DNA from: a virus
IMG/VR virus record: IMGVR_UViG_3300045960_000146
Span: 1-22,171 of that record
DNA length: 22,171 nt
Reading direction: 5' to 3' (one strand)
Below the pieces are notes generated by a model. It searched no databases and was not told where the DNA came from. It worked only from the letters and a program-made list of their open reading frames with translations. This document shows, piece by piece, positions 1 through 16,487 of this stretch (position 1 is the stretch's first letter; each line of letters starts with the position of its first letter). Both the position numbers and the translations under genes were made by a program.

Positions 1-993
1 GATGGGGAGGTCGGCGATGCGGTCGATGATGTCCTTGGCCGCCTTCAGGTTCTCCTTCAGGTTGCCGTTCTCCTCGTTCAGGTCTTCGACCTGCTTCTGG
101 AGCTCGACCATCTTCGTCAACACTTCCACTAGACGGCCCGAGGTCGTCTCGAAGGCCTTGTGGAGGTCGTCCTGCGACTCGGCGTCGCGCGTGACGGTAT
201 CTCCGAGGTCTTCCGTGTCGCCCTCGGCTGTCTCGTCGAGCAGGGCATCGTTCTCAGAGGCACCCGGCGAGGTGGTCTGCGAACCCTGACTGTCGTCGCT
301 CGTCACGGTCACCGTGACGCGCGTGCGTCCCTCGGCGAGGTCGGGCTGGACGTCTTCGGCCAGCTCCTCGCTGATGGCACCGGTGGTATCCGGCTCGGTG
401 TCCTTCTCCACTTCCGTGGGGACGGGCTCCGGCTCGGGCTCAGGTTCGGTCTCGAAGGACGGCTCCTCGCCATCGACGATGGTCGAGAGGCTCTTCGTCG
501 CGTACTGCACCCAGGACCGCGGGTTCGCGGGGATGCCGACGATGGAGGCTTCGAGGAGATTGACGTCCTCGATGATGAAGCCACCGTCCTTCTTCTTCGT
601 CGCTCCGCCCTTCGGAATCTGGGCGCCGATGCTCGTCCCCAGCTTCACGCCGGAGTCGACGGCCTCCCAGGTCTTCAGGGCGCGGGGGTTCGTCTCATTC
701 ACCACGACGTCGAAGTCGAGGTCGACGATGGGGTCTGTCTCGCCCCAGCCGCGCTGCTCGACCTTCGTGTTCTCGACGGTCCCGAGGACGTCCTCGGGGA
801 CCTTGTACTCGTGGTTGAGGAAGATGGTCATCCCGACGGCGGACTGCGCCATCTTCTCGATGGCAGGCAGCCGAATCTCGTCGCCCGCGAGGTCGCGGAC
901 GGTCGATGATGCCGTCGTCTGCAGATGCTTCTTCCCGTCGGCAGAGGTATAGGCCTTCAGGAGGCCGCTGTAGATATTGAACCGCGCGTCCAT
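1..993 (-). CDS. HK97-type prohead protease fused to scaffold-like domain (partial, 3' end off window)
   Basis: The frame is open from an ATG at 993 to the window edge, giving 331 residues with no stop, so the gene is incomplete. Residues about 8-170 read as a caudoviral prohead protease (the serine protease that matures the procapsid). Candidate catalytic residues are His61 in FLNHEY, Ser121 in KLGTSIGA and Glu149 in NLLEASIVGIPANP, which is the conserved end of the fold. After a Pro-Glu linker (about 178-200) comes an acidic, low-complexity stretch, then a heptad-like coiled coil at about 285-325, as expected of a scaffold. Protease-scaffold fusions are known in HK97-like phages. The start overlaps the glycosyltransferase end by 37 nt and has GGAGG ten bases upstream. 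The major capsid protein would be expected next, outside the window. The protease call is secure; the scaffold role is inferred. Confidence 0.85.
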   Translation of the reverse strand, partial: MDARFNIYSGLLKAYTSADGKKHLQTTASSTVRDLAGDEIRLPAIEKMAQSAVGMTIFLNHEYKVPEDVLGTVENTKVEQRGWGETDPIVDLDFDVVVNETNPRALKTWEAVDSGVKLGTSIGAQIPKGGATKKKDGGFIIEDVNLLEASIVGIPANPRSWVQYATKSLSTIVDGEEPSFETEPEPEPEPVPTEVEKDTEPDTTGAISEELAEDVQPDLAEGRTRVTVTVTSDDSQGSQTTSPGASENDALLDETAEGDTEDLGDTVTRDAESQDDLHKAFETTSGRLVEVLTKMVELQKQVEDLNEENGNLKENLKAAKDIIDRIADLPI

Positions 994-2198
994 GTGTCAC
1001 TTTCCTCCGGGGATGCTGTAGCCAGCTCCGAAATCAAGTCATGGAACTTCGCGGCTGCGAAGTCCCAGGAAAAGCCCAGGGCGTGGGCCGCGCCCTTCTC
1101 TCCGAGGTCTCTACGCATCCCACGTGAGAGGTAGAGCTTCTCGATGGCCTCGGAAAACAGGCCGACATCGGGGAGCCACTGGTCGTGGCCGGGTGGGACC
1201 GTCTGCTCTCGTTCTGGGAGCAGGAGCGCTGCGCCGGGTCCGACCACCTCGGGGATGGTCGAACAGTCCGGTGCGACGATGGGGACTCCGCAGGCCGCCG
1301 CCTCCAGGAGGGTCAGGCCGAAGCCTTCGCCCGCCGTAGTGGAGACGTACAGGTCTGCTGCGTTGTACAGGACCGCCAGGTCCTTCTCGGGCCAGCCGAA
1401 GAACGTGTTGATGCCGCCAGGGAACTGGAAGCGGTCCTTCAGCTTGGGCTCTCGGGTGAGGAACTGCGCGAGGTTGTATCCCGCGCTGTCGTTCGCCTCG
1501 CAATGGAGATGGACGATGATGTCGGAGTGCTTCCGCATCACGGGCCAGAGGGCCTTGATGGTGTCCGGGTAGTTCTTCCGCGTCGAGTTGCGGTCCACGC
1601 GAAGGACGAGGAATGCGTCTGGGTCGAACCCGAACGCTCTCTTCGCATCCTTCTTCGATGCGATGACACGCCCGTCCGACATCGTCATGGGGCGATGCGT
1701 CACCGGGTAGAAGGTCTCGGTATCGAGCCCGTGGTAGACGACCGGCGCCTCGGGCATCCACGTATCGCGTCCGAACTTCGTCATCGCGACGCGCTTCACG
1801 ACGTTCGCCAGGACCTGCCAGGTCCCCGGCTGATGGATGCCGTCGATGGGCATGTAGGCAAGGATGGGGCGGTACTGCAGCAGATACTTCTCTGCGTCGT
1901 ATTTGTTGCTGAACAGGTACCGCATGACGACGAACGGGTCGTTCACCATCACGACGACATCCGGCTCGACTGTCCCGAGCATCTCGGTGACCCGGCTGAA
2001 GCCGTAGACGTCACCGGGCGAGAGCATCGTCGGCGAGTAGAGCTTCATCGGAGTGGGGTAGTGGTCGCCCCGGTGATTGATGGCGAGGACGCTGATGTCA
2101 TCGCCGTAGTTGCGAACGAGCCTGTCGCCGATTTCGTGCGTGACCTTCGAGAACCCTGTATGGCAGCCGCCGTCGCCTATCCACAAGACGCGCGTCAC
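957..2198 (-). CDS. GT4-family (GT-B fold) glycosyltransferase
   Basis: This 413-residue protein is likely a cytoplasmic enzyme that transfers a sugar from a nucleotide-sugar donor. The N-terminal Rossmann half begins RVLWIGDGG. The C-terminal half contains VDRNSTRKNYPDTIKAL and the donor-site block EGFGLTLLEAAACGVPIVAP at about residue 290. That block carries the E-x7-E signature of GT4 retaining transferases. The length fits the family. The start is taken as GTG at 2198, which shares its G with the TAG of the upstream gene and has GGAGG just ahead; the frame is open 25 codons further but nothing there resembles the family. It lies between a putative baseplate/fibre gene and the prohead protease, so it is probably co-expressed with virion proteins. 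Donor and acceptor cannot be read from the sequence. Confidence 0.85.
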   Translation of the reverse strand: MTRVLWIGDGGCHTGFSKVTHEIGDRLVRNYGDDISVLAINHRGDHYPTPMKLYSPTMLSPGDVYGFSRVTEMLGTVEPDVVVMVNDPFVVMRYLFSNKYDAEKYLLQYRPILAYMPIDGIHQPGTWQVLANVVKRVAMTKFGRDTWMPEAPVVYHGLDTETFYPVTHRPMTMSDGRVIASKKDAKRAFGFDPDAFLVLRVDRNSTRKNYPDTIKALWPVMRKHSDIIVHLHCEANDSAGYNLAQFLTREPKLKDRFQFPGGINTFFGWPEKDLAVLYNAADLYVSTTAGEGFGLTLLEAAACGVPIVAPDCSTIPEVVGPGAALLLPEREQTVPPGHDQWLPDVGLFSEAIEKLYLSRGMRRDLGEKGAAHALGFSWDFAAAKFHDLISELATASPEESDTWTRGSISTAAS

Positions 2199-2518
2199 TA
2201 CTCCCTCCGAACGACGAGTGTGTTCGTGCTCGCGGTCGTCTGGACGTCCTGGTTGGCGTAGACGACCTTCCATTGGACATCGTAGGTTCCCGGCACGTTG
2301 AGGTCGTTCCTGCCGAACTCGTAGAGCACCTTGCCGAGCGTCGGGTCTCCGGAGATGTCCGCCTCCGCGTTGACGGTGAAGAGCTTGTCGTCCGCCTTCC
2401 GCATCTGGAACCAGATACGGGCGCCGGTCAGGTCGAGCGCGGTCCCGTCCTTGTGCGTGAGGGTGGCCCGGACGACAGGGCGGTTATTGCCCTGGACGAC
2501 CGTCGGATAGGTCGGCAT
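2198..2518 (-). CDS. Small beta-sandwich virion protein, BppU-N-like
   Basis: About 106 residues. The pattern is an alternating beta-strand domain: NNRPVVRATLTHKDG, then ALDLTGARIWFQMRK, GKVLYEFGRNDLN, VPGTYDVQWKVVYA and a final TLVVRRE strand. This 'linear in X, DLTGA, pG-Y-...' pattern resembles the N-terminal domain of phage baseplate upper proteins (BppU-like) and similar Ig-like fibre-attachment domains; the assignment is by eye. The ATG at 2518 overlaps the stop of the giant repeat protein as TGATG, implying translational coupling. A GTG one codon earlier (2521) is possible. Its place directly after the giant fibre-like protein suggests a partner or attachment protein. It could also be a generic Ig-like decoration protein. 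Confidence 0.6.
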   Translation of the reverse strand: MPTYPTVVQGNNRPVVRATLTHKDGTALDLTGARIWFQMRKADDKLFTVNAEADISGDPTLGKVLYEFGRNDLNVPGTYDVQWKVVYANQDVQTTASTNTLVVRRE

Positions 2519-5500
2519 CACAGCACCCCCGTAATGCGCGCCGCTGCTGTCAGCTGACCGGTTTGGACAGTGGTGGCTGGCGGGGCGAGCGAGAAGGTCG
2601 TCTCGATGGAGTCCACCTCGATGGCGGCCCGGATGTCATCTACGTCCAGCTCTGCGCTTATCGCATCGATGTCCAGGACGGACCCGATGGTATCGGCATC
2701 GATATCCGCGGAGATTGCATCGACATCGATGTGCGCGTAGATGTCGCTGTCGAGGAACCGCCCGACCCACGCATGCGCGGTAAGCGAGAAGGCGCATGTG
2801 AGGCTGACCCATGCGTCCGCCGTGAAGTCGAAGACGCCACGGAGGTTCGCGTCCGAGGTGAAGGAGAAGACGGCAGAAGAACCAAAGACCGCGTCTGCGG
2901 TGAAGCCGGACGTCCGGCCTGCCAGCGCCACCGCGTCCGCGGAGACGCTCGCGGTCCCTGTTCGCCTTACGCGCGCATCTGTCGTGAAGGCGTGCGTCGT
3001 GGACGCCGCGATTATGGCGTCCGATGTGAGAGTAGCAGAACGCGTCGACTTGACAACAGCGTCGGCGCTACAGATTCCAGCAAATGTCCTGCGCAGGAGC
3101 GCATCCGCGACGAAGGACCCGGCCGCATGCGTTGTGAGCTCGGCGCTTGCGGTGATTGTGTATACTGCGGCTCTGCGCTGGAGGACAGCCGAGGCCGTGA
3201 AAACGGCGACAGGCGTCGTGCTAGTCCAGGCATCCGTGGTAAGGGAACCGGACGAGGAGCGCTCGATTGCAGCGCTCGCGAGGAGGGCTCCTATACCGGA
3301 ACACCGGATGACTCCGGAAGCCGAGAAGCTCCCCATCCCGGTGGAGAGAACAACGGCAGACGAGTCAAACGAGAATGTCCGGCCCCCACGGATGACACCG
3401 TCGGCCGTCGACTGAAGGGCGAAAGTCCGGAGGACGACGGCCGATGTGCTTGTCCCGCCCGTCTGCTCGCGGCTGATGACACCGTCGGCCAGCGCAGAGG
3501 CGGCCTGCGTCCTCTTCGCGACGGCGTCCCCCGGGACGGAGCCCGTGGCGGTCCGCAGGATGACAGCGTCCGCCCCGATGGACCCAGACGCTGCCCGCGC
3601 GATGGACGCATCGGACGTGATGTAGCCCGACCCACCCACCCGGAGGACCGCGTCGGCGCTCATCGTTCCCAGGCGGGTACCGAAGATGTCCGCGCTCGCC
3701 GTGACGGACCCGGTGCCGCCACGGTTGATGCTCGCCTCGGCGGTGACCGAGCCGGTCGGCGTGCCGAAGAGCGTCGCATCGGCGGCGAGGGCGAAGACGC
3801 CGGACCCCTGGACCCATGCCCGTGCGGTGAAGGTTGAGCTAATGCCGGACGACTTGATGTCCGCATCAGCTGTGACAACACCATTGACAGGCCTGTAGAA
3901 GTACGAATCCGCGCTGAGGCTGGTGCTGGACGTCCGTGCGATAATCGAGTCCGACGTGATACCGACCGTCGAGGTCTTGCCGATTACTGCATCAGCAGCT
4001 ACGGTTCCAGTAGACGGTCTCTTGAACGTCGCATCGGAGGACAGACTGAAGATGAAGGTCCTGCGGAAATCAGCGGAGGCTGAGTACGCGCCCGCCTGGG
4101 TGACACGCAGGACTGCATCGAAAGTGACGGTATCGCTATGGGAGAGCTGTACATCGGCATTGCCACTCAGCTGACCCTGGACGGTCTTCTTGATGACGCC
4201 GTCCGCGCCGACCCCCGCCTGTCCTTCCTTCTTGATGACCGCAGCCGCTACTACCTGGCCCTGGCCGAGCGCGAAGATGACCGCGTTCGCCGCGACGCTC
4301 GCCGCCTGCGTCGCCTTCAGGTCCGCGTCCGCGCTGTAGCTGCGCGTCTCGACCCGCAGAACCTTCGCATCCGCCGTCAGCTGCGCGCTGGCAGCACGTT
4401 TGACGTCCGCGTCTGAGGGGAGCGACCCTGCCCGGCCTACGCGCCTGAGGGCGTCCGCGGTGAACGCGCCCGTCTGCGTCCTGAAGATGTCCGCATCGGC
4501 GGTGTACGCTCCAGTCAGCGTCTTCTTCGCGATGGAATCCGCTGTCAGGACCGTCGTGAACGAGCGCAGGATGACGCCAGCGGCGACCGTGTCCCCTGTT
4601 GCCGGTCGCTTGATGACGGCGTCCGCGGTGCTGGAGCCGGACCTGCTGACGCGAGTGACAGCCTGCGCCGTCAGCCCTCCGGCTCCCGCCGTCCTGACGA
4701 CCGCGTCCGCGGTGAACGCGCCGCTCAGCGAGCGCTTGATGTCGGCGTCCGCGCCGAACCCATAGACGTTGACGCCGAGCTTCCAGGCGTTGGCCGTGAA
4801 CGTGGACGCCTGGAGGACTAGCTGCGTGGCATCGGCGGTGAACGAGCCGGTCTGTGTGACGAGGGATAGGAGGAGTTCAGCGTCCCCGGTGAATGAGCCG
4901 GTGAGGACACGCAGGACGTCGGCCGCCCCGGTGAATGACCCGGACTGCGTCTTCCTGACGGACGCATCCGCGGGCACGGAGGAGCTGATGCCTGAAAGCT
5001 TGACGACGGCATCTGTCGTGGCGGACGAGGCCACGGACTTCTTGATGACCGAGTCGACCGTGAACGACGAAGCGGCGCTCTGCTTGACTGTCGCATCGGC
5101 AGTCGTCGTCGAGGCGAACGTCCGCAGGAGGCTGGCATCTACCGTGATGCCGACGGCACCACCAGCGGAAGGCCGCACCGCGAGCGTGTTCGCGGCGGAG
5201 TATGTCCCGCCCGACCACGTGACGTTCCCCGGGTCCTCCGACGAGGCCGCGTTCTGCCGGTACATCGCGACGACGCCACCGTTGGTGCCATAGCGACGAG
5301 CGGTGAACGCGGAGAAGTTCGCCGGACCGGACGAGTAAGCGTTGTTGTAATGTCCCGCGACGACGAGCCAGAGGGTGTCCTCGGTGCCCCACCCCGACGG
5401 GTCGAGCGACGGCGGGTTGACGGTCGACGCAGGCCCAGCCGTGACGGTGGTCCCGCACTCGGGGACCGTCGTCCCGTGCCACCCGGTCACCTTCAGGACA

Positions 5501-8445
5501 GTCCATGCCGCCCATCTCGACGTGGCGAGCGCGACGGTGAGCGTCCCACCGGATGTGTCCTCCGCCTGCATGATGCGATAGCAGACGCGGAGGCGGAAGG
5601 CGTTGGAGGGTCCCACCTGATTGAAGAGCTCGGTGAACTTCGTCGTCCCGCCGTCATACGTCCAGGAGTTCTGGGCCGTGCTCGCGTCGTTCAGGAAGGC
5701 GACGATGAGAAGGTCGCCCGTCGAGAACGACGGGAGCGTGACGCCGAGGGACGTCCCCGCGCCGGAGCCACCCGACTCGCTGACCCCTATGGGTCCGCCG
5801 CCCGTCCCGGCGGAGAATGTCTTCTGGATGACAGAGTCAGCAGAGAACGAGGGGGAGACCGTCCTCCCCACGGTCGCGTCGGCAGTTCCAGACCCCGTCT
5901 GCCCTCGCTTGATGACGGCATCCGCCGTAACCGAGCCAGAGACCGTGACGGTGAGCCGCGCATCTGCCGTCAGTGGCGAGCCGTCGACTGCTCCACCCGC
6001 CTGCGTGGCGAGGAAGTCATCTGCGGTGGTCGCGCCGATGAGTCCTTCGCCATCGTCGTAGGACCCGACGAAGATACCGACCTTGCCGGTCGTGTTCTGG
6101 TTGGCGGCGGTGTTGTCGGTCGTGTCGATGCCCCACGACCCACCCTCGGAACCGGATTGCAGCCACGCCTTCAGGCGGAGGGATGTCGGAGACGCACCGG
6201 ACGCCTGAAGGCGATACCGGGACGCCCCGATGGACTTCGACGCGGATGCTACCTCTGTCCACGCCCCCGCCGTCGAGCGATAGAGGTAGAAGAGGTTGTA
6301 CGACCCCTGCACGAAGTAGTAGGTCGTGCTGCTGACGCGACGGACGACCGGACCACCGAAGTAGGCGTCGTCGGTCGAGAGGTAGACATCGACATCGCCG
6401 GAGATGTCCGGAGCGACGACCGAGATACCGCCGCCGTCCAGACCGGACATATTCGGCGGGACCGTCGCCGCGGCGCGGTCGTTCGTCTTGTCGATGAGGA
6501 TGCCGCCCGCGGAGCCCACGTAGTCGGCGGTCCACGACGTACCTGTTTCAGGCGTGTGCGTCGAGAGGGCGGCGGTGCCCGAGCCTGCCTCTGTGAATGA
6601 GTCCTGCGCGACGGTATTGGTGCCAGAGGAACCATAGACGCGCTCGCGCTTGATGTCGGCGTCGGCGGTAAAGACCATCCCGTTGGTCGCGCCGCCAGCC
6701 CACGCCTTGAAGACGACCGCATCGGCCTTCTTGTCGGTGAAGGTGTAGGTCGTGGCCCCCTGCACGATGGTGGCGTCAGCCGTGATGGGCGCCCCGTCGG
6801 CGTGGATGGTGCGGACGAGGATGGTTCCGGCGACCCAGTACTCCGCGGAGGCATATGTGAAGACGCCCGGGTCTTCTGTCGCACCGGCTCCTGTCTTGTA
6901 GGCGGCGACGATGTTCGTCGCGCCAGCGAACCCGGAGACATAGCGATGCGGGAATGTCGTGTACCCGGACGGACCGGAGTCGATTGAGACGAAGTAGTCG
7001 CCAGCGGCGATGGCGATGGCGAGGTTGTTCCCCGTACCCCACGAGGCCGTCTCGGACGGTGGGTTCGCCGTCGTCGTGGAGCCTGTCTCGGCTGTCCCGG
7101 AGGACGGAGCGGATGTCCCATGCCAGTCGTCGACGGGAATGCGCAGGATGGTCCAGGCGGCTGCGTTCGGACTCGTCCAGGAGACCGTGACGGTGGAGGA
7201 GTCTCCCTCTTGCATCTTCCGGTAGCGGCAGTCCATGCGGACGTTGTAGAGGTGACTGTTATCCCAGAGCTGCGACCAGTGGTTCGTCGCTCCGTCATGG
7301 GTCCAGGTCTGGGCCTCTGACCCGTCCATGCTGACGGCCATGATGAGAAGGTCGCCGGGGACGAAGGACGGGAGCGTGATGTCGCGGCTCGACGGAGATG
7401 TCGACTCCGCGTACCCGGTCTCCGTCAGCCCAGGGAAGTTGCCCGATGGCCGGTGGACCAGTGTCCGCGTGATGACGGCGTCGGCGGTGAGCGGCGTCGG
7501 CTCGTACGTCTTCTTGATGACGGCGTCCGCGGTGAGCGGCGTCGGCTCGTACGTCTTCTTGATGACAGCGTCCGCGGTGACGCTCTGGGCTGCCCCCGAA
7601 TAGGTGCGCAGGACCACCGCGTCCGCGGTAGCGGAACCGGTATTCGCACGGACGAAGTTCGAATCAGCAGCAAGGGACCCGGAGATGGTCGCCTTGATGT
7701 CGGCGTCGGCGGTGACGGTGACGAACTTCGTCCAGCCGTTCGCCTCGGCGAGGACAATCCAGCCAGACGCCCAGTCCTGCGCGACCGTCCATCCGGTCGT
7801 GTTGTACGTCTGCGTCGAGTTCGCCGTCGCCTGCAGCTTCGTCTGCGTGGCGACCGCCATGCCCGTCGAACCGGAGCCGACCCTGGCCGTCTGCTGTGTC
7901 GACCACGACCCATTCGTCGTGTCCGAGTCGCCCGTCGGGGAATACGAGCCGGTCTCGTAGGCGACGGCGGCGACGGTCAGCTGCTCGACGGTGATGGTGC
8001 CGGTCGTGACCGAAGGGGTCGTCGTCGCGGCGCCTGCACCCGTCCCGGTCGTGGAGTAATCCGCGTTCTTCACGTCCGCGGCGGTGATTTCCCAGAGCGC
8101 GCATGCCTTCGCCGTGCAGTTGCTCTGGGTCGTGAACGTGATGACCGTCGAGGACGTCAGGGGCAGGACGTTCTGGTCACAGGTGAAGATGCGCAGGACG
8201 CAGCCTGCGTTCGCGGACGCCGGGTCCCTGAGGGTCGCATGCCGCGACGTCCACGTGTTCCCGAGGGTATCGGTGACGCTGCCCGTGCCGAACGGGTCCG
8301 CCCCCGAGGAGCCGGAGTTGTCGTAGGCGACGACGAGGACCGCGATGGAGTTCGACGCGAAGTCCCCGTTCGGGCTGATAGTCAGCCCGTTCGTGTTGCT
8401 GGAGTTGTTCGTCGCGGTTCCGCGTGCGGTACTTCCAAGCGCCAT
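2518..8445 (-). CDS. Giant TADA-repeat fibre/adhesin-like virion protein (1975 aa)
   Basis: The largest gene in the window, rich in Ala, Ser, Thr, Gly and Asp. Visible layout: an N-terminal globular beta domain (about 1-235); six short repeats (about 240-335); a lectin-like domain starting near ITLPSFVPGDLLIMAVS (about 337-550); three repeats; a LamG/concanavalin-like domain (about 615-815); four repeats; a second copy of the lectin-like domain starting near VTLPSFSTGDLLIVAF (about 885-1095). Then follow roughly 57 consecutive repeats of about 14-16 residues with core T-A-D-A-V-I-K-R (about 1095-1890), and five 9-residue repeats (1906-1950). There is no signal peptide, membrane helix or visible enzyme motif. 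The start ATG overlaps the stop of a short upstream frame (TGATG), with no strong ribosome site. The repeats suggest a long beta-structured shaft carrying binding domains, so a tail fibre or head fibre is likely; the exact role is inference. I do not recognise a named family for the TADA repeat. Confidence 0.75.
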   Translation of the reverse strand: MALGSTARGTATNNSSNTNGLTISPNGDFASNSIAVLVVAYDNSGSSGADPFGTGSVTDTLGNTWTSRHATLRDPASANAGCVLRIFTCDQNVLPLTSSTVITFTTQSNCTAKACALWEITAADVKNADYSTTGTGAGAATTTPSVTTGTITVEQLTVAAVAYETGSYSPTGDSDTTNGSWSTQQTARVGSGSTGMAVATQTKLQATANSTQTYNTTGWTVAQDWASGWIVLAEANGWTKFVTVTADADIKATISGSLAADSNFVRANTGSATADAVVLRTYSGAAQSVTADAVIKKTYEPTPLTADAVIKKTYEPTPLTADAVITRTLVHRPSGNFPGLTETGYAESTSPSSRDITLPSFVPGDLLIMAVSMDGSEAQTWTHDGATNHWSQLWDNSHLYNVRMDCRYRKMQEGDSSTVTVSWTSPNAAAWTILRIPVDDWHGTSAPSSGTAETGSTTTANPPSETASWGTGNNLAIAIAAGDYFVSIDSGPSGYTTFPHRYVSGFAGATNIVAAYKTGAGATEDPGVFTYASAEYWVAGTILVRTIHADGAPITADATIVQGATTYTFTDKKADAVVFKAWAGGATNGMVFTADADIKRERVYGSSGTNTVAQDSFTEAGSGTAALSTHTPETGTSWTADYVGSAGGILIDKTNDRAAATVPPNMSGLDGGGISVVAPDISGDVDVYLSTDDAYFGGPVVRRVSSTTYYFVQGSYNLFYLYRSTAGAWTEVASASKSIGASRYRLQASGASPTSLRLKAWLQSGSEGGSWGIDTTDNTAANQNTTGKVGIFVGSYDDGEGLIGATTADDFLATQAGGAVDGSPLTADARLTVTVSGSVTADAVIKRGQTGSGTADATVGRTVSPSFSADSVIQKTFSAGTGGGPIGVSESGGSGAGTSLGVTLPSFSTGDLLIVAFLNDASTAQNSWTYDGGTTKFTELFNQVGPSNAFRLRVCYRIMQAEDTSGGTLTVALATSRWAAWTVLKVTGWHGTTVPECGTTVTAGPASTVNPPSLDPSGWGTEDTLWLVVAGHYNNAYSSGPANFSAFTARRYGTNGGVVAMYRQNAASSEDPGNVTWSGGTYSAANTLAVRPSAGGAVGITVDASLLRTFASTTTADATVKQSAASSFTVDSVIKKSVASSATTDAVVKLSGISSSVPADASVRKTQSGSFTGAADVLRVLTGSFTGDAELLLSLVTQTGSFTADATQLVLQASTFTANAWKLGVNVYGFGADADIKRSLSGAFTADAVVRTAGAGGLTAQAVTRVSRSGSSTADAVIKRPATGDTVAAGVILRSFTTVLTADSIAKKTLTGAYTADADIFRTQTGAFTADALRRVGRAGSLPSDADVKRAASAQLTADAKVLRVETRSYSADADLKATQAASVAANAVIFALGQGQVVAAAVIKKEGQAGVGADGVIKKTVQGQLSGNADVQLSHSDTVTFDAVLRVTQAGAYSASADFRRTFIFSLSSDATFKRPSTGTVAADAVIGKTSTVGITSDSIIARTSSTSLSADSYFYRPVNGVVTADADIKSSGISSTFTARAWVQGSGVFALAADATLFGTPTGSVTAEASINRGGTGSVTASADIFGTRLGTMSADAVLRVGGSGYITSDASIARAASGSIGADAVILRTATGSVPGDAVAKRTQAASALADGVISREQTGGTSTSAVVLRTFALQSTADGVIRGGRTFSFDSSAVVLSTGMGSFSASGVIRCSGIGALLASAAIERSSSGSLTTDAWTSTTPVAVFTASAVLQRRAAVYTITASAELTTHAAGSFVADALLRRTFAGICSADAVVKSTRSATLTSDAIIAASTTHAFTTDARVRRTGTASVSADAVALAGRTSGFTADAVFGSSAVFSFTSDANLRGVFDFTADAWVSLTCAFSLTAHAWVGRFLDSDIYAHIDVDAISADIDADTIGSVLDIDAISAELDVDDIRAAIEVDSIETTFSLAPPATTVQTGQLTAAARITGVL
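2596..2730 (-). repeat. Five tandem 9-residue (27-nt) repeats at the C-terminus of the giant protein
   Basis: The encoded residues 1906-1950 divide exactly into five 9-mers: IDVDAISAD, IDADTIGSV, LDIDAISAE, LDVDDIRAA and IEVDSIETT. The consensus is [IL]-[DE]-[VIA]-D-x-I-x3. The pattern is distinct from the TADA repeat and suggests a short regular beta or solenoid segment near the end of the fibre. Confidence 0.85.
2790..5160 (-). repeat. Long TADA-repeat array inside the giant protein (about 57 units)
   Basis: The minus-strand translation shows about 57 consecutive degenerate units, roughly 14-16 residues each, of the form G-S-[VF]-T-A-D-A-[VD]-[IL]-x-[KR]. About 13 more units lie in the N-terminal half. 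The DNA copies have diverged at many positions while the core is kept, pointing to old duplications under selection on the protein. Boundaries are approximate. Confidence 0.85.
7471..7560 (-). repeat. Two near-identical tandem 45-bp repeats (15 aa each)
   Basis: Positions 7471-7515 and 7516-7560 match with one mismatch and encode two copies of TADAVIKKTYEPTPL. A third copy starts at 7561 but diverges after about 20 bases. This is the only place in the giant gene where neighbouring repeats are almost identical in DNA, so it marks a recent duplication. Confidence 0.9.
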
Positions 8446-8591: not shown

Positions 8592-8999
8592 CTACCCGAG
8601 CTTCATCCAGTCCACGTCGAACTTCTCGTCGAGGTAGCGACCGATGGTGCGGAGGGCCTCCCGGACGGTGATGCCCGCGACAATCCAGCCGGTGGGCTTC
8701 CCGAGGTTGCCGACCTTCGTGATGAGCCAGTTGCGCTGCGCGAGCGTCAGGACGTCGTCGAGTTGGAGGTCGGGGAAGACGGTGAGGTCCGGGTCGGCGT
8801 CGGCGGCCGTGACTGCGCTATCCGCGATGCGGCAGAGACACCAGTTGAACATCGGCGTCCCGTCCGCGTTGCCGGGGATGATGGTGACGTAGGGCCCGTA
8901 GTCCGATGCCTTCGCCCGGTACGGGCCGGTCGTCGCCTCAGAGCCGGGAGTCACCACGGACGTTCCGTTCCCGATGATTGGCGAGAGGACCCAGCGCAT
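8592..8999 (-). CDS. Conserved-looking phage protein of unknown function (135 aa)
   Basis: The protein begins MRWVLSPIIGNGT, has a central PDLQLDDVLTLAQR segment and ends in a helical stretch with VREALRTIGRYLDEKFDVDW. It has no membrane segment or signal peptide. The start ATG at 8999 overlaps the preceding stop as TGATG. It ends in TAG, and the frame stays open for 49 more sense codons beyond it. Its position directly before the giant fibre-like gene suggests a small virion or assembly role, but no family is recognised. Confidence 0.75.
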   Translation of the reverse strand: MRWVLSPIIGNGTSVVTPGSEATTGPYRAKASDYGPYVTIIPGNADGTPMFNWCLCRIADSAVTAADADPDLTVFPDLQLDDVLTLAQRNWLITKVGNLGKPTGWIVAGITVREALRTIGRYLDEKFDVDWMKLG

Positions 9000-9388
9000 C
9001 AGCCCCTCCCGGCGAGGAGCATCCGCCCGATGACGTCGACATCATCGCCGGTGCAGACAAGGCCGACGAGGAAGGCCCACATCCTGTCCGTCGCCCCGTC
9101 GAGACGCTTCTTCCCGATGCCATACGCGATGTACTCACCGGGTGCGCTCGTCGTCGCGAAGTGCCGCGCCGTGTAGTACGGCTGTTCACCTTCGAGGACG
9201 ACCATGTGCATCGCGGGGAACGAGTGGTCCTTCCGCAGCAGGCTCCACATGGACGTGACGCGGAGCCAGTCGGCGTAGGTAGTCGCCCAGCCCTTCTCGT
9301 CCAGGTCGACGATGACGGACTCCGCTCCGTCCGGGAGCGAGATATGGAGGTAGAAGGGGTTATCGCCCTGCCAGGCCCTCATCTCCAT
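8999..9388 (-). CDS. Hypothetical protein (129 aa) within the glycosylation/structural block
   Basis: A mixed alpha/beta protein with strands such as NPFYLHISLPDGAESVIVDL and HMVVLEGEQPYY and a C-terminal helix RMWAFLVGLV. The hydrophobic stretch is too short to be a confident membrane segment. The start is ATG at 9388, overlapping the end of the upstream glycosyltransferase by 10 nt; a second in-frame ATG lies two codons in (9382). It is coupled downstream through TGATG. No motif is recognised. Confidence 0.7.
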   Translation of the reverse strand: MEMRAWQGDNPFYLHISLPDGAESVIVDLDEKGWATTYADWLRVTSMWSLLRKDHSFPAMHMVVLEGEQPYYTARHFATTSAPGEYIAYGIGKKRLDGATDRMWAFLVGLVCTGDDVDVIGRMLLAGRG

Positions 9389-10200
9389 CCGAGCTTCTCC
9401 TTCGCCTGCTCCCAGCCGAGGGTAGGCAGGCCCATCTTGTCATTGACCTCGCGGCGCATGTACTCGTCCCCGGGCGAGCGAACGGCAATCTGCGCCCAGT
9501 AGTCGCGCTTGGTGATGATGCGCTCCGCCACGTGGCCGATTTCGATGCGTGTATCGACCCAGATGGAGCACCCGGCGGCCTTCGCGTCCTGGCAGAAGGC
9601 GAGGTCCTCCCCGAACGTCGAGCCCCAACGGAAGAACGAGGGGGGCCGCCCTCCCACTCGAACGTCGAGCGGTGGCATCTCCGTCCCCGCGATGGATTCG
9701 AAGACGCGCTTGTGGATGATGGCGAAGGCGAGCCCCGTGGCGTCGACCTCGACGATGTCATCATCCCAGTCTTCGAGGAAGTTGTAACCCCCCGACTCAG
9801 GCCCCTCGCGCATGTACAGCGTCGGCTGGTGCGGTGCGGAGCGCCGGAAGCAGAGGCCGCCGACGATGTCGAGGTCGTACTGCTCGCGCGTCGCGACCAG
9901 GCGCCCGATGTCCCCCGGCTCGAACACCATGTCATCGTCGATGAAGAGGAGCCAGTCACCCTCCATCCGCTGGACGGCCTCGTTGCGCTGCATCGTGAGG
10001 ATGCCGCCCTGGAGGATGAGCCTGTTGACCGAGACGCCGGGCGGGAGCCACGAGTAGTCCGTCATCAGGAGGCTCGTGACCGTCGCCGCATTCACGTGGT
10101 CACGGCAGGGGATGGCGAGCGTCCCGGCCTTCGTCGTGTCCGGGTACGCCATCCTGAAGGCTGTCGTCCCGTTATTCGTCGGTGCCGCCTCCAGGCTCAT
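9379..10200 (-). CDS. GT-A-type glycosyltransferase (GT2-like), 273 aa
   Basis: Residues 79-90 read MEGDWLLFIDDD. The DDD at 88-90 is the metal- and nucleotide-sugar-binding motif of GT-A enzymes. An upstream LTMQRNEAV segment is the usual helix before it. Further on, FGEDLAFCQDAKAAGC (about 207-222) carries the ED acidic pair of the acceptor/catalytic site, followed by a His in EIGHV. The size is compact, as in phage-encoded transferases. The ATG at 10200 overlaps the epimerase stop as ATGA. It probably works with the neighbouring epimerase and glycosyltransferases on a shared glycan; donor and acceptor are unknown. Confidence 0.8.
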   Translation of the reverse strand: MSLEAAPTNNGTTAFRMAYPDTTKAGTLAIPCRDHVNAATVTSLLMTDYSWLPPGVSVNRLILQGGILTMQRNEAVQRMEGDWLLFIDDDMVFEPGDIGRLVATREQYDLDIVGGLCFRRSAPHQPTLYMREGPESGGYNFLEDWDDDIVEVDATGLAFAIIHKRVFESIAGTEMPPLDVRVGGRPPSFFRWGSTFGEDLAFCQDAKAAGCSIWVDTRIEIGHVAERIITKRDYWAQIAVRSPGDEYMRREVNDKMGLPTLGWEQAKEKLGWR

Positions 10201-11150
10201 CGCGAACGCACCATCAGCTCGATTCCCTCCTCCAGCGAGACCTTCGGCGTATAGACCGCGCGCATCCGCTCCGTGTCCGCGTAGCGGTTCGCGACGCCGA
10301 CGGGCTTGCTCTCGTCCGTCTTGATGGTCGGCGCATACCCGACGATGTTCGCGGCGAGGCGGGCCACCTCGCGGAAGCTCGTCGCGATGCCCGTGCCGAT
10401 GTTCAGCGCCTGGTAGCCGTGGAGGCCCTGGTCAAGCATCGCCTCCGTCGCTCCCACGACGTCCGTCACGTGGATGAAGTCCCGGGTCTGCAGGCCGCTC
10501 CCCCAGACCATCAGGGGGTTCTCCTTCCGGGCTGCCCGGGCCGTGATGGCGGGCATCGGATAGTCGAGTGGCTGCTCTTCCCCGTACCCGGAGAACGGAC
10601 GGATGCAGAGCGTAGCGAGACCATACTCGGCGGCTGTGCACGCGAGAACCTCCCCCGCGAGCTTCGTGAAGCCATACATGCTGTCCGGCCGCTCCCAGTA
10701 GCCGTCGTTCGGGATGAACATCTCCTCGCTCAGGGAGGTGTGCCCGTCGTCCTCCTGGAAGACGGTCCCGTAGACGGCGGACGAGGACGGATATACGGCG
10801 ACGCGCGCGTGCTTCGCCGCATACCGGAACATGAGCATGTCGAGGCGCAACGAGTCCGCGTTATAGAGCTGGTCGTACTCGATTTTCATCCGCCCGCCGA
10901 CGGGCGCGGCGAAGTGGTAGATACGGTCGAAGTACGTCGGCCAGTGGTCCGCCCGCCACTCGAACGCGCCATCGGTGAACCACCACCCGGCGTCGCATTC
11001 CCGCCTGCGCTCGGGAGGTGTCTCGAACGGCCACCGGGCGTGCTCGGCGGACATGTCGTCGATGGCCCACACCTCGTGCCCTGCGGCGACGAGGTGGCGG
11101 GTGAACGACCGCCCGAGGAACCCGGCCGCTCCGGTGACGAGGATGTTCAT
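10197..11150 (-). CDS. NAD-dependent epimerase/dehydratase (nucleotide-sugar, extended SDR)
   Basis: The 317-residue length is typical of nucleotide-sugar epimerases and dehydratases. The N-terminus MNILVTGAAGFLG has the GxxGxxG NAD-binding loop (residues 7-13). IYHFAAPVGG, YPSSSAVYG (Ser at 122-125) and the catalytic pair Tyr159-x3-Lys163 (YGFTK) follow in the right order. RDFIHVTDV (223-231) is the usual substrate-domain motif. This level of reading cannot separate UDP-glucose 4-epimerase, GDP-mannose 3,5-epimerase and 4,6-dehydratase types. The start is ATG at 11150, overlapping the methyltransferase stop as ATGA; an ATG five codons earlier is less likely. It would supply a modified sugar donor for the adjacent glycosyltransferases. 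Confidence 0.88.
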   Translation of the reverse strand: MNILVTGAAGFLGRSFTRHLVAAGHEVWAIDDMSAEHARWPFETPPERRRECDAGWWFTDGAFEWRADHWPTYFDRIYHFAAPVGGRMKIEYDQLYNADSLRLDMLMFRYAAKHARVAVYPSSSAVYGTVFQEDDGHTSLSEEMFIPNDGYWERPDSMYGFTKLAGEVLACTAAEYGLATLCIRPFSGYGEEQPLDYPMPAITARAARKENPLMVWGSGLQTRDFIHVTDVVGATEAMLDQGLHGYQALNIGTGIATSFREVARLAANIVGYAPTIKTDESKPVGVANRYADTERMRAVYTPKVSLEEGIELMVRSR

Positions 11151-11740
11151 CGAGTCGCGCTCCACAGCTGGAAGTCATAGGGGAATCCGTCGAGCGCGAA
11201 CAGGCCGTGGGACGTCGGCGTCCAGCCAGCCTCTTCTAGCATCTCGCCATAGCCCTTCATGTCGAACTGCCAGAGATGTTCCGGGTTCGATTCGTCGCTC
11301 TGCCCCGGGCGCATGCAGGGCGAGGACGCGACGAGATTGGTCGCGACGAGACGTGCGCCGCGGAGGATGTCGACGGGGTCGGGGACGTGTTCTAGGAACT
11401 CCGTGAGGACGACCATGTCCCATGGGCGCATCCTCCCGAGGTTTATCCGGAGGCACGTCTCGACGTCCTCGACATGCTTCTCATGCGGGAACGAGACATC
11501 GAGCGCCTCGATGGACGGGGCGCTGATGTCACTGAGTCCCGCGTATTTGATTGGATGGATTCTGTGCGCGGCCTCGACGATGGACCCGTCACCGCACGCC
11601 GGGTCGAGGACCTGCTCCGGCCGGTGCCACGCGATGAGCGCGCCCGTCGTGAGGAGACGATGGATGTGGTCGGGCCAGGTGAAGTTGCTGCGAGCGACCT
11701 GGTAGTCGGCCTCACTCGCGTCCCGGATACGCAGGCGCAT
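11147..11740 (-). CDS. Class I SAM-dependent methyltransferase
   Basis: This 197-residue protein has motif I VLDPACGDGSIVEAA (about 44-58), the glycine loop that binds S-adenosylmethionine. AGLSDIS follows (motif II region), then WDMVVLTEFLEHVPDP (107-122), the motif IV and post-motif block typical of small-molecule and sugar methyltransferases. It does not carry the NPPY or DPPY tetrapeptide of N6-adenine DNA methyltransferases. The location between sugar-metabolism genes suggests methylation of a sugar or glycan, which is inference. The ATG at 11740 begins one base after the previous stop. Confidence 0.82.
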   Translation of the reverse strand: MRLRIRDASEADYQVARSNFTWPDHIHRLLTTGALIAWHRPEQVLDPACGDGSIVEAAHRIHPIKYAGLSDISAPSIEALDVSFPHEKHVEDVETCLRINLGRMRPWDMVVLTEFLEHVPDPVDILRGARLVATNLVASSPCMRPGQSDESNPEHLWQFDMKGYGEMLEEAGWTPTSHGLFALDGFPYDFQLWSATR

Positions 11741-11741
11741 C

Positions 11742-12068
11742 TCAGGCGACGGTGACGGCCTGGCTCTTCACGGACGAGTCGTCGGACACCTTGCGGACCT
11801 CGACTGTCCAGGAGCCCGCCTCGGGGAAGATGTAGTTGTTCAGCGTGTACTCGCCGTCCGCGTTGCAGGCGAAGACGTGGCTCCGGCCCATCTCGGTGCC
11901 GTCGAGCTCGTACGTCGCGTAGTAGCGGACCTCGTCCATGGACGGGAAGTGCTCCGCGTCGAACGTCGTGTCATCGTTGAGCGAAAGACCGGCGAGGTCG
12001 AAGCGCACGACGGTCTGCTTCGCGGTGATGCTGCCCGACTCGGGGGTCGGGGTCACGGTCACAGCCAC
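11742..12068 (-). CDS. Small Ig-like beta-sandwich protein, putative virion component (108 aa)
   Basis: The start is GTG at 12068, with AGGAG five bases upstream; it overlaps the preceding glycosyltransferase by ten bases. The chain alternates beta strands: KQTVVRFDLAGL, EVRYYATYELDG, RSHVFACNADGEYTLNNYIF, GSWTVEVRKV and a final QAVTVA strand. The GSWTVEV plus final strand pattern is typical of Ig-like or fibronectin-like modules found on phage surfaces. There is no enzyme motif. A decoration or connector protein is plausible; the fold call is by eye. Confidence 0.6.
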   Translation of the reverse strand: MAVTVTPTPESGSITAKQTVVRFDLAGLSLNDDTTFDAEHFPSMDEVRYYATYELDGTEMGRSHVFACNADGEYTLNNYIFPEAGSWTVEVRKVSDDSSVKSQAVTVA

Positions 12069-12832
12069 GGTTTCTCCTTCTCGAATGCGATTGCCTCGAC
12101 CCTGGGCCACCAGGGATACGAGCGGACATGCCTCCACCCGCGTCGCGCCGCGGACGCAACGCAGGCGTTATGCATCATGAGGCGATTGTGGTCCTCCCAT
12201 CCGGGATTTCCGCGGCCGACATCCCAGTAACGCAGGTAGTCCTGCATCATCTCGTCGAGGCTCCGCACGTGGTTGATGTGCCCGTGTCGCCACAGCATCG
12301 ACCTCTTGTCCGGGACATCCGGACGGCTGTGGAGCATCAGGGGCCACGTGTACCTCTTGCGGTACAGGCGCAGATGCGAATGCTGCTCCTTGTACTCGTT
12401 CCCCTCGACCCAGCTGTGGAACGGAATCCATATCCCGTCCAGCTCGTGCAGCTCGCTCACCCATGTCGCGTGCGACAGGCTGTCGAGGAGGTCGTCGGAG
12501 GGGAACTCATCCGCGTCGAGCTTGAAGACCCAGGGGGTCGAGAGCTTCTCCGCGACCAACCCGTATGTCGCGTCGCCGTAGCCCTTGCGCTCGTCGGAGC
12601 TCACGATGTCCGCGTAGCGGAGCGCGATGTCGTAGGTCCTGTCCGTCGACTCCTGGACGCTGATGGCTATCTTCCCGAAGTAGGGGCGGCACTTCTTCAG
12701 GAGCTTCGGAAGACGCTTCTCTTCGTTCCACACGGCCATCGCGAGTCCGATGTGCGTGTAGGGCTTGCGGTTCGGATACCGGATTCCCGAGTGCCTGGCG
12801 ATGGCCTTGCAGTCGGGAAAGTAGTCGAGCAT
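12059..12832 (-). CDS. GT2-like glycosyltransferase (257 aa)
   Basis: The N-terminal strand IGLAMAVWNEEKRLPKLL (28-45) contains the NEE signature of family 2 transferases. KIAISVQESTDRTYDIAL follows as the second strand and loop. VFKLDADEFPSDDLL (103-117) holds the DAD metal site at 106-108. The C-terminal half is rich in Trp, His and Arg (RLYRKRY, WRHGHINHVRS), likely the acceptor-binding part. It is similar in plan to family 2 enzymes that act on glycoproteins or lipopolysaccharide cores. It starts at the ATG directly following the TAG of the next upstream glycosyltransferase. Confidence 0.83.
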   Translation of the reverse strand: MLDYFPDCKAIARHSGIRYPNRKPYTHIGLAMAVWNEEKRLPKLLKKCRPYFGKIAISVQESTDRTYDIALRYADIVSSDERKGYGDATYGLVAEKLSTPWVFKLDADEFPSDDLLDSLSHATWVSELHELDGIWIPFHSWVEGNEYKEQHSHLRLYRKRYTWPLMLHSRPDVPDKRSMLWRHGHINHVRSLDEMMQDYLRYWDVGRGNPGWEDHNRLMMHNACVASAARRGWRHVRSYPWWPRVEAIAFEKEKPWL

Positions 12833-13510
12833 CTACGCTTCCGCCATCTCCGCGATAGCCTCACGCACCTTGCTCACGTCCGCGCCCGCTGCGTGCAGGA
12901 GCCACGACTCGTACGCGATGCGGTCCTTGTCGTACATCTGTACCGCGTTCACCCGGGCGTATCCCTCGTCCCAGGTCGCCTTCCCGGCGGCCGGGTGCAT
13001 GTGCTCGATGATGACGTCCGAGAGGTAGTGGAGGGAGCCAGACCGCTCCCCGAGGTACTTCCAGGCGTTGTCGAGGTAGAGGTGCATCTGGGCCGGGGGA
13101 CAGAACCAGCCGAGCTTCTCGACGATGGGGCCGCTGATGAAGACGGCGGTCGGCAGGTTCTCCCGCTGGTACAGGTCGTCTCCGTAGGCGAACCCACCGT
13201 GCCTCAGCGCCTGCGTGACGCGCCGGTCCCAGCCAGGGGTGCGGAATCGGTGGTCGTCCCCGACGAAGCCGATGACGTCCCAGAGGCACGCCTCGCGCGC
13301 GGCGATGAGGTTGAGTGCGTCTGCCATCCCGGGCCTGCCCCGGGGGACGACGTACGAGCCCTCGGGGTACAGCTGCGCGGTGGCGTCGTCCTCGTCGAGG
13401 ATGAACGCGAGCTTCGTCGTCGGCAGCTCCGCCGTGCGCACGAACGTGCCGAGCAGCTCCGCCGCCTTTTCCGGGCGCCCACGCGAAGGGCAGAGGACGA
13501 GCGTCGTCAT
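12833..13510 (-). CDS. GT-A-like glycosyltransferase (225 aa)
   Basis: MTTLVLCPSRGRPEKAAELL at the N-terminus is the opening strand, loop and helix of GT-A folds. KLAFILDEDD (33-42) is the second strand with its acidic loop. DVIGFVGDDHRF (78-89) contains the GDD that corresponds to the DxD metal site. ISGPIVEKLGWF and a late EHMHP (169-173) match the C-terminal acceptor side. The start ATG at 13510 overlaps the upstream stop as ATGA; the frame is open 25 codons earlier but without sense. Likely part of the same glycan pathway as the neighbours. Confidence 0.78.
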   Translation of the reverse strand: MTTLVLCPSRGRPEKAAELLGTFVRTAELPTTKLAFILDEDDATAQLYPEGSYVVPRGRPGMADALNLIAAREACLWDVIGFVGDDHRFRTPGWDRRVTQALRHGGFAYGDDLYQRENLPTAVFISGPIVEKLGWFCPPAQMHLYLDNAWKYLGERSGSLHYLSDVIIEHMHPAAGKATWDEGYARVNAVQMYDKDRIAYESWLLHAAGADVSKVREAIAEMAEA

Positions 13511-13758
13511 GCGGGGTCTCCGAACGTCTGCAGCAGCTGGCATACCTTGTTCCAGATGTCCGCCGTGTACTGGGTCATGTCGCAATTCCCGCAGATGGTC
13601 TTCACGAGGTCGTTGACCTTCGCCGCCACCTCCGGCGTCAGCGGGCCGACACGGAGCCAGTCCATGTCGTCCCCCATCCCTTTTGCGATGGTCGAGTAGT
13701 CATAGACCTGGAACGCGGCCCGACGGATGTTCGCCTCCGTCAACGGGTCGTACGCCAC
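13507..13758 (-). CDS. Hypothetical protein (83 aa) with CxxC
   Basis: The start is GTG at 13758, backed by a strong AGGAGG six bases upstream, although it overlaps the preceding gene by 59 nt. Three cysteines lie at 56, 59 and 73, the first two as ICGNCD, so a metal site or disulfide is possible. The rest looks helical (TPEVAAKVNDLVKTI, ADIWNKVCQLLQTF). It could be a head-tail or assembly protein by position. No family is recognised. Confidence 0.65.
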   Translation of the reverse strand: MAYDPLTEANIRRAAFQVYDYSTIAKGMGDDMDWLRVGPLTPEVAAKVNDLVKTICGNCDMTQYTADIWNKVCQLLQTFGDPA

Positions 13759-13970: not shown

Positions 13971-14411
13971 TTACGTCTCGTCGTATTCGAGGTGCTTCAG
14001 CTCACGAAGTCGTCGGTACATGGACTCCCTCAGCTCTTCCTCTTCTGGCGACAGGCGCCTCTTCGGATTTGGCTTTCGCGCCCTGTCCTCGACGAGGTTC
14101 TGGAACGCGATGGCGACATCCGCTTCGTCCGCCTTGACGTCGAGATATGGCCTCAGCTCTCGCAGTGCCATGCCAGCGATGCTCGATACGGTCACCCATT
14201 CCGAGATGGACCGCTGGTTACCGATGCGCTTCGTGACCTGGATGGAGCCACCGAACCGTCTCTGGAGCCGGAGGAGAGGCGCTGGATTCACCTGATGACA
14301 GGCGAACCTGAGATACCAACGCCTCCGGCCCTGGGGACTTCGGCTTACGCCGATAGCGATATGACCTTCTCCGTCGATAAATCCCGCGAGATAGAGTAGC
14401 TCAGCGTCCAT
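13971..14411 (-). CDS. Free-standing LAGLIDADG homing endonuclease (146 aa)
   Basis: YLAGFIDGEGHIAI (7-20) is the LAGLIDADG helix with its acidic metal-binding residue and the following strand. The rest matches a one-motif monomer: basic DNA-facing strands (RRWYLRFACHQVNP), a RLQRRFGGSI segment, TKRIGNQRSISEWVTV and a basic C-terminal helix. One-motif enzymes act as homodimers and cut long sites to spread their own gene. The ATG at 14411 has no clear ribosome site and lies in the loop of a hairpin (14400-14419). The gene is bracketed by a 10-bp direct repeat. It sits between structural genes and is not in an obvious intron. The call is firm; target site unknown. Confidence 0.88.
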   Translation of the reverse strand: MDAELLYLAGFIDGEGHIAIGVSRSPQGRRRWYLRFACHQVNPAPLLRLQRRFGGSIQVTKRIGNQRSISEWVTVSSIAGMALRELRPYLDVKADEADVAIAFQNLVEDRARKPNPKRRLSPEEEELRESMYRRLRELKHLEYDET

Positions 14412-14454
14412 GCGCTGAGTCTACAACTACAGCGGGTATTTATCACGTCTCGTC
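13973..14454. repeat. 10-bp direct repeats flanking the homing-endonuclease gene
   Basis: ACGTCTCGTC occurs at 13973-13982 and 14445-14454, 472 bp apart, and the next bases (GTA versus ATA) nearly match. On the minus strand the two copies encode the last residues, YDET, and the start of the stop codon of both the 162-aa protein and the endonuclease. Confidence 0.7.
14400..14419 (-). promoter_or_regulatory. Hairpin holding the homing-endonuclease start codon in its loop
   Basis: CTCAGCG (14400-14406) is perfectly complementary to CGCTGAG (14413-14419), with a 6-nt loop at 14407-14412. The start codon of the endonuclease is complementary to 14409-14411, inside the loop. Such RNA structures restrict translation of free-standing homing endonuclease genes in T4-like phages; function here is inferred. 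Confidence 0.6.
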
Positions 14455-14464
14455 ATAGCTGTAG
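14427..14464 (-). promoter_or_regulatory. Hairpin spanning the stop codon of the 162-aa gene
   Basis: CTACAGC (14427-14433) and GCTGTAG (14458-14464) form a 7-bp perfect stem with a 24-nt loop containing the TGA at 14443-14445. It may protect the 3' end of the structural mRNA, or weakly terminate before the endonuclease. There is no U tract. Confidence 0.35.
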
Positions 14465-14931
14465 CTGATGGTCTCCTGGGTCCAGTTCCCCGGGCCGCAG
14501 TCAGCGGCCACCTGGAGCTGGAAGACGGCGTAGCGGGTCGTGGACCCGGTAGCCGAGTAGCTCGTGGCGTCCCACGTGGCCTTGTTGCCCGACGTGTAGG
14601 TCGTGAACGCCGCGTTCGCGATGCTCGACGTGCCATTGGTCGGGGTCGTGCCGGTGACGTAGTTCGCCGTGAAGTAGAGCGACGTGCTCGTCTGGACGGC
14701 GCCGTCACCCCAAATCTTGAAGTTGGTGACGCCATTGGACGGGGCCGTGTCGATGTACAGCTTCAGCCACTTCTCGTACGAGTTGGTGCCGACGCTGATG
14801 GGGTTCGACGTCCGGTTCCCGATGCTGTTCGTCGCGTTGTCGGCGGAGACGAAGTCGATGCCCGTCACGGCTGCGGACTGCGTCCCCGCGCTCGCGCCCG
14901 TGTAGACGCGAACCGAAAGAGCTGCGGTCAA
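14443..14931 (-). CDS. Putative virion structural protein (162 aa)
   Basis: Thr-, Ser- and Asn-rich, almost all beta (LSVRVYTGAS, EKWLKLYIDTAP, NFKIWGDGAVQTSTSLYFT, RYAVFQLQVAADCGP) with a final strand ETISYSYDET. This composition is typical of phage head-decoration or fibre-type proteins. The start is TTG at 14931: no ATG or GTG is as well placed, and AAGGAG lies six bases upstream. It directly follows the portal gene. There is no signal peptide or enzyme motif. Confidence 0.65.
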   Translation of the reverse strand: MTAALSVRVYTGASAGTQSAAVTGIDFVSADNATNSIGNRTSNPISVGTNSYEKWLKLYIDTAPSNGVTNFKIWGDGAVQTSTSLYFTANYVTGTTPTNGTSSIANAAFTTYTSGNKATWDATSYSATGSTTRYAVFQLQVAADCGPGNWTQETISYSYDET

Positions 14932-16299: not shown

Positions 16300-16487
16300 C
16301 ACACCTTCCTTCGAAGTGCATCGCGGACGATGGCCTTCTGCTGGCGGTTGAGCAGGTCGGCGACCATCTGCTTCTCGGAGAGGCGGAGGGCCTCTTCGTA
16401 TGTGTAACGCCATGTGTCGATGCTGCGCAGCATCGTCCCGACGTGGTCAGGGATTTCACGCCATCCGTCGCGGAACTCCGCCCTCAC
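16299..16487 (-). CDS. Small helical protein between terminase and portal (62 aa)
   Basis: The start is GTG, overlapping the large terminase stop (GTGA); the end overlaps the portal start (TGATG). The sequence is almost wholly helical and charged (YTYEEALRLSEKQMVADLL, RQQKAIVRDALRRKV). Small helical proteins at this position occur in several phages and may help packaging or head assembly. No family is recognised. Confidence 0.65.
   Translation of the reverse strand: MRAEFRDGWREIPDHVGTMLRSIDTWRYTYEEALRLSEKQMVADLLNRQQKAIVRDALRRKV

Follow-up and report, generated by a model that had tools for sequence, protein, structure and literature searches.

The DNA analysed in this study (hereafter the window) is an IMG/VR virus record of 22,171 bases, in which the phage genes identified all lie on the minus strand. 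It carries a large gene for a protein made of 14-residue repeats and globular domains, lying among structural and sugar-modifying genes. The features are as follows:

1-993, minus strand: prohead protease, cut by the contig end (Pfam/PHROG profiles)
957-2273, minus strand: GT4-type glycosyltransferase, after the adaptor (Pfam/PHROG profiles)
2198-2521, minus strand: single-domain BppU_N protein (the putative adaptor), 107 aa, GTG start (PF10651, E 4.3e-8)
2518-8445, minus strand: repeat gene encoding the probable fibre, 1975 aa, 69 units of 14 aa plus globular domains (translation, autocorrelation, profile)
2521-2751, minus strand: C-terminal module, residues ~1899-1975, IDVDAIS-type repeats plus the last unit (sequence)
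2746-5157, minus strand: main repeat array, residues 1097-1900, near-continuous 14-aa units (autocorrelation, profile)
5170-5793, minus strand: beta-sandwich domain copy 2, residues ~885-1092 (AlphaFold2 model; Foldseek)
5995-6636, minus strand: LamG-like segment, residues ~604-817 (label given by eye; a similar segment opens the L068 protein)
6808-7437, minus strand: beta-sandwich domain copy 1, residues ~337-546 (39% identity to copy 2; homologues in 17 viral contigs)
7732-8445, minus strand: N-terminal globular domain, residues 1-238, ~235 aa (sequence)
8592-8999, minus strand: cassette protein IGNG, 135 aa (a homologue adjoins the G018 repeat gene, 32%, E 6e-7)
8999-9388, minus strand: cassette protein DLD, 129 aa (homologues in L101, L135, L027, G011 and G018)
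9379-10200, minus strand: GT2-type glycosyltransferase (Pfam/PHROG profiles)
10197-11165, minus strand: nucleotide-sugar epimerase/dehydratase (profiles)
11147-11740, minus strand: methyltransferase (profile)
12059-12832, minus strand: GT2-type glycosyltransferase (profile)
12833-13585, minus strand: glycosyltransferase-like protein (phrog_14945)
13971-14411, minus strand: LAGLIDADG-type gene
14443-14931, minus strand: cassette protein VYTG, 162 aa, small, beta-like (69% identical in L101, 48% in G011)
14959-16413, minus strand: portal protein (Pfam/PHROG profiles)
16484-17917, minus strand: terminase large subunit (Pfam/PHROG profiles)
18295-19056, minus strand: ParB-like protein

The repeat gene is an ATG-initiated open reading frame. 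An earlier note on this DNA had given its boundaries and its length of 1975 residues correctly and omitted the strand; a plus-strand reading of 2518-8445 was rejected, since it has stops in frame across the stretch. The stop codon of the gene and the GTG start of the BppU_N gene overlap by 4 bases, and the PF10651 match of the latter lies above the curated cut-off. Both ends of the large protein were also missing from the earlier list of its domains. The N-terminal domain gave no family match in Pfam or PHROG and no BLASTP similarity to the two beta-sandwich copies, while the body of the C-terminal module (residues ~1899-1952, beginning IDVDAISADIDADTI) lies ahead of the last unit and resembles the ends of the proteins in L026, L121, L133, L068 and L115. 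Searches with the whole protein and with its pieces revealed no fibre family in Pfam (E up to 1) or in PHROGs, including the PHROG tail fibre profiles, and PDB searches by sequence (whole protein and profiles) returned nothing credible.

Autocorrelation of residues 1096-1905 peaks at lags of 14 (0.279) and 28 (0.266) residues over a background of ~0.08. An iterated 14-mer profile recognised 69 units, of which 13 precede residue 1097 and 56 follow it, almost all of them joined head to tail with zero gap, in good agreement with the approximately 70 repeats (about 57 consecutive and about 13 interspersed) reported earlier. The shuffled protein (n=100) gave a mean of 4.3 and a maximum of 9 units, and a family-wide profile finds 72 units in the window protein. 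TADA is a consensus and not an invariant motif: its exact form was counted 20 times, against a mean of 0.37 and a maximum of 3 in shuffled sequences, and the consensus of 432 units of the family reads x-G-S-F/L-T-A-D-A-V-I-R/K-R/K-T-x. Within the selected blocks, conservation is 87% at position 6, 83% at position 7 and 96% at position 8. Tandem Repeats Finder reported no array over the repeats, whose GC3 is 0.83. The units are on average only 45% identical in nucleotides, and their third-base identity at identical residues is 0.44; the array is therefore old and kept by selection on the protein. The repetition belongs to the encoded protein and does not stem from a recent expansion of the DNA. 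The repeat has no match in Pfam, PHROG or the PDB and we found no published paper naming it, so that the earlier statement that no named repeat family could be recognised holds for these libraries and the literature searched.

Patterns and the repeat profile revealed the same repeat family in at least 32 other IMG/VR contigs, with 8 to 84-85 units per protein. In contrast, tblastn found the repeat in none of 50,697 phage records and none of 72,556 plasmid records. Since the same BLAST settings, at the size of the phage collection, recovered 37 of 37 known repeat loci, its absence from the phage records is not caused by the low-complexity filter. Among 55 pattern matches in GTDB genomes, the best-scoring ones examined were coiled coils (TADAAEKAGQIE) or other repeats and not members, and many viral pattern matches (AADAAA, SASAAS, AADAQAKIDADV) were rejected as well. 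Given this absence from phage and plasmid records and the unrelated nature of the GTDB matches, the repeat-bearing contigs look like phages of hosts without cultured phages. Several contigs (L026, L135, L115, L120, L121 and L081) each carry two adjacent repeat genes, as if the fibre had been duplicated.

The two beta-sandwich copies (residues ~337-547 and ~885-1092) are 39% identical over 213 aa (BLASTP, E 1e-36). The duplication claimed in the earlier note was thus real; the names lectin and LamG given there were labels by eye without a Pfam or PHROG match, and a search of residues 600-826 gave no match to a LamG-type or any other Pfam family at E up to 1. Relatives of the beta-sandwich domain, with a common WGTEDTLW signature, open proteins of 247-1192 aa in 17 viral contigs. 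The AlphaFold2 model of copy 2 has a pLDDT mostly of 76-94 across the domain. When it was compared with BFVD by Foldseek, minor tail proteins from Gordonia phages and mycobacteriophages matched it at E values between 8e-7 and 5e-5, with a TM by target that was mostly 0.4-0.75. As modelled, the domain therefore has a known phage tail-protein fold, and "lectin" remains a guess. The minor tail proteins of Hawkeye, Tweety and GodonK share this predicted fold with the window domain at just 12-18% identity, and TADA repeats were detected in none of the phage records. Fold relatives from the PDB were unusable (best Foldseek E 0.027, to a Klebsiella phage depolymerase; best VIA-align Z 5.0), immunoglobulin light-chain matches to the domain profile (E 0.02-2) were rejected as chance, and a joint alignment of the domain and the repeats was misaligned and dropped.

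The globular modules between the repeats are interchangeable across the repeat family. Other repeat proteins contain inserts with propeller-like repeats (L101 and L062, by eye), a LamG-like segment (L068) or a tail-hub-like one (L078). In L133 (1454-4714) approximately 25 copies of a 20-residue repeat (RTTSEAPTTSDVATRTGSFN) precede the TADA repeats, placing two repeat families in one chain. Proteins of L002, L005, L008 and L014 begin with the beta-sandwich domain and continue as long arrays of different repeats with a period of ~20-22 residues (VAGTGSVPSVTIS, QNSETDSAQALSKRKS, VVQDATQAQTVD and GLIDSGSAIYAPTV), which suggests convergent repeat fibres in unrelated phages. They share the domain with the window protein and differ from it in motif and period, and BppU_N was not detected in their contigs. 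A further beta-sandwich protein, in L003 (4713-6851), has linkers rich in Ser (SSASSESS) and carries a GPGKVHVTQT repeat at its C-terminus.

One gene order recurs, whole or in part, in the relatives: the portal gene, then sugar-modifying genes, a DLD-type gene and the repeat gene, and after it the BppU_N and GT4 genes. PF10651 was identified in 16 of the 32 repeat-bearing contigs (directly downstream of the repeat gene in 13). It was found neither in the 18 viral contigs used as controls (Fisher p 1e-4) nor in the 17 whose sole common feature is the beta-sandwich domain (p 2e-4); these values overstate independence, because the phages share ancestry (G011 and G030 look near-duplicate), and the controls are pattern matches and not a random sample. 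BppU_N was not detectable in the other half of the repeat-bearing contigs. The glycosyltransferase PF00534, usually located just after BppU_N as in the window, is present in 20 of 32 repeat-bearing versus 2 of 18 control contigs (p 8e-4). Epimerases taken by themselves show no significant enrichment (p 0.17).

In G011 and G018, the genes for VYTG (48% and 37% identical to that of the window, respectively), DLD, the repeat protein and a protein of ~100 aa occur in the same order as in the cassette, directly behind phrog_5287 minor tail genes and phrog_1887 or phrog_196 tail or hub genes. BppU_N homology of these small proteins, which occupy the place of the adaptor, was not demonstrable (hhalign probability 1.5%). 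Portal genes precede the cassette in the window and in about eight relatives, and in the window it is situated between portal and prohead protease. Judged by gene order, this is a single cassette with two locations, since it follows the portal in some phages and tail-tip genes in others. VYTG homologues across the cassette are 162-175 aa long with 37-70% identity, and VYTG has no match in Pfam, PHROGs or phage records. VYTG and DLD flank the sugar genes in the window lineage. The LAGLIDADG-type gene, located just behind VYTG at the edge of the block separating it from DLD, is possibly linked to the arrival of these enzymes.

The best explanation of the locus is that the repeat protein is a virion adhesion fibre, which we consider probable. 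The gene lies in a structural module (terminase, portal, prohead protease) and overlaps a BppU_N gene, a type enriched beside repeat genes; tail-hub genes stand ahead of the cassette in G011 and G018; the beta-sandwich fold resembles that of actinophage minor tail proteins; the repeat has an amphipathic strand periodicity (see below); and modules are swapped between repeats across the family. With only slightly less assurance, it can be proposed that the fibre belongs to a tailed phage of an uncultured host and combines a beta shaft, binding modules, docking through BppU_N and sugar enzymes. The 14-residue units would form a long, strand-rich, amphipathic shaft, flexible or rod-like, presenting several sugar-binding-like modules. 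The interleaved beta-sandwich domains may be surface-binding modules, probably for glycans, and the BppU_N protein probably holds the fibre on the virion, as in the lactococcal baseplate or neck whiskers. The most likely form is a modular, probably glycosylated whisker at the neck or tail tip.

Modular long phage adhesins with BppU_N anchors are already known; new are the repeat and its cassette, which were absent from all libraries searched and for which no paper was found. BppU_N rings carry the adhesins of lactococcal phages, both at the baseplate and at the neck, where they are fused to fibres with carbohydrate-binding tips (PMC6669499). In neck passage structures of this kind an N-terminus resembling BppU is combined with a fibre and CBM tips, and binding to cells was shown for some of them (PMC6669499); lactococcal phages can dispense with their neck fibres, which are bound to the portal vertex (PMC4493119). 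The window resembles the neck passage structure of 936 and P335 phages (TP901-1 ORF51) in its BppU_N-type domain, the hallmark of such adhesion devices, and in its long fibre, and the CBMs can be likened to its candidate binding modules. However, in those structures BppU_N is fused to a coiled-coil fibre with a CBM at the tip, whereas in the window it is encoded by a separate overlapping gene (no Pfam match to BppU_N was found in the fibre chain itself), the predicted shaft is a 14-residue beta repeat and the domains are interleaved. A device of the BppU type would also be expected to form an 18-mer ring at the neck or baseplate. Another parallel is gp007 of Halorubrum tailed virus 25 (HRTV-25), a 1569-aa LamG- and repeat-rich protein whose gene overlaps that of a standalone BppU_N protein (gp008) beside terminase and portal. 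Its repeats are degenerate and are not TADA 14-mers, it has no TADA sequence similarity, and the host is archaeal. This locus (L211, 2284-7324) is an experimentally tractable analogue from a cultured virus.

The strongest competitor concerns placement: the protein may be specifically a tail-tip (baseplate) fibre, the head-region location being a matter of gene order only. We give this somewhat less than even odds, and put the neck rather than the tail tip below an even chance as well. The position of the G011 and G018 cassettes directly behind tail-hub and minor tail genes points to the tail tip, as do L078, which joins the repeats in one chain to a segment with weak resemblance to the tail protein XkdQ/YqbQ (E 0.015), and the fact that BppU of TP901-1 is a baseplate protein (PMC6669499, PMC4493119). 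The neck is favoured by the location downstream of portal genes in the window and several relatives, and by the standalone BppU_N genes of HRTV-25 and HGTV-1, which adjoin terminase and portal.

Wherever the proposed adhesion fibre is attached, its shaft would be built from the repeat. The hydrophobic moment at 180 degrees exceeds that of shuffled sequences (z 4.8 for the window, z 15.7 for the family), and that at helical angles is below it. In the AlphaFold2 repeat model (monomer, 21-row alignment) each unit has strands of ~9-10 residues, at a pLDDT of 51.6 and a pTM of 0.36. The strand and turn that the earlier note proposed for each unit are consistent with the alternating hydrophobicity if the beta strand is amphipathic, and with a turn of five residues adjacent strands would have to run antiparallel; the regular shaft or solenoid was not borne out by a model of such confidence. 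For a triple beta-spiral (the adenovirus shaft type, trimeric and with two strands per repeat) this monomer model provides the only comparison. YadA/Hep_Hag head repeats are likewise 14 residues long, beta-rich and adhesive. Their motif is different, the window repeat has no glycine in a second turn, and the protein has no Pfam match to this trimeric autotransporter head at E up to 1.

Low model confidence, an array with 25% Ser plus Thr and nearby glycosyltransferase genes would also suit a disordered, glycosylated brush, in which the repeats were mucin-like sugar carriers without a fixed fold. We consider this improbable: the hydrophobic alternation is strong (positions 4, 6, 8 and 10 are nonpolar), and the exact 14-residue spacing with very few indels and the conserved Ala and Asp are unlike mucin linkers. 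The earlier note had regarded a disordered chain or homology to an enzyme as arguments against a fibre; the model, despite its low confidence, is strand-rich, leaving some room for disorder, and no enzyme homology was found.

Similarly improbable is the capsid-surface filament, or head fibre bound to the major capsid protein, that the earlier note had suggested beside a phage fibre. A gene between portal and prohead protease would suit it, and the archaeal tailed virus HFTV1 has receptor-binding-like turrets on its head (PMC12494034), but no capsid-binding domain was found, BppU_N is known from tail and neck rings, so that neck or tail tip fits the adaptor better, and relatives adjoin tail-hub genes. 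A non-virion protein (e.g. an adhesin that is secreted, or a phage-borne factor for defence or superinfection) is very unlikely: the adhesin-like domains would suit it, but the gene is co-directed with structural genes, overlaps BppU_N and has relatives beside tail-hub genes, and 1975 aa would be costly outside the virion.

Another component of the virion fibre reading concerns the sugar enzymes. The epimerase, methyltransferase and glycosyltransferases probably make a sugar and attach it to virion proteins, the likeliest target being the Ser/Thr-rich fibre. That the fibre itself is glycosylated is a tentative proposal, with a little less than an even chance. S-CBS4 and phiPsal1 have similar enzymes in the same portal-to-neck region without a TADA fibre; therefore the enzymes need not act on the fibre.

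In a more far-reaching and rather doubtful proposal, an undescribed 14-residue beta-repeat fold would build very long phage whiskers, and the cassette (VYTG, DLD, fibre and adaptor, often with sugar-modifying enzymes) would provide uncultured phages with self-contained, swappable, self-glycosylated adhesion devices, docked behind portal or tail-hub genes. Assuming that every unit contributes one strand, such whiskers, with up to 84-85 units, could attain lengths of tens of nm.

The repeat family and its conserved cassette, present in at least 33 uncultured phages, have been missed by annotation libraries. Through them, BppU_N adaptors can be connected in a testable way with long beta fibres and with glycosylation encoded by the phage. 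Should the fold prove to be new, it would add a building principle for phage fibres; if not, many hypothetical giant genes of viral metagenomes would still be explained.
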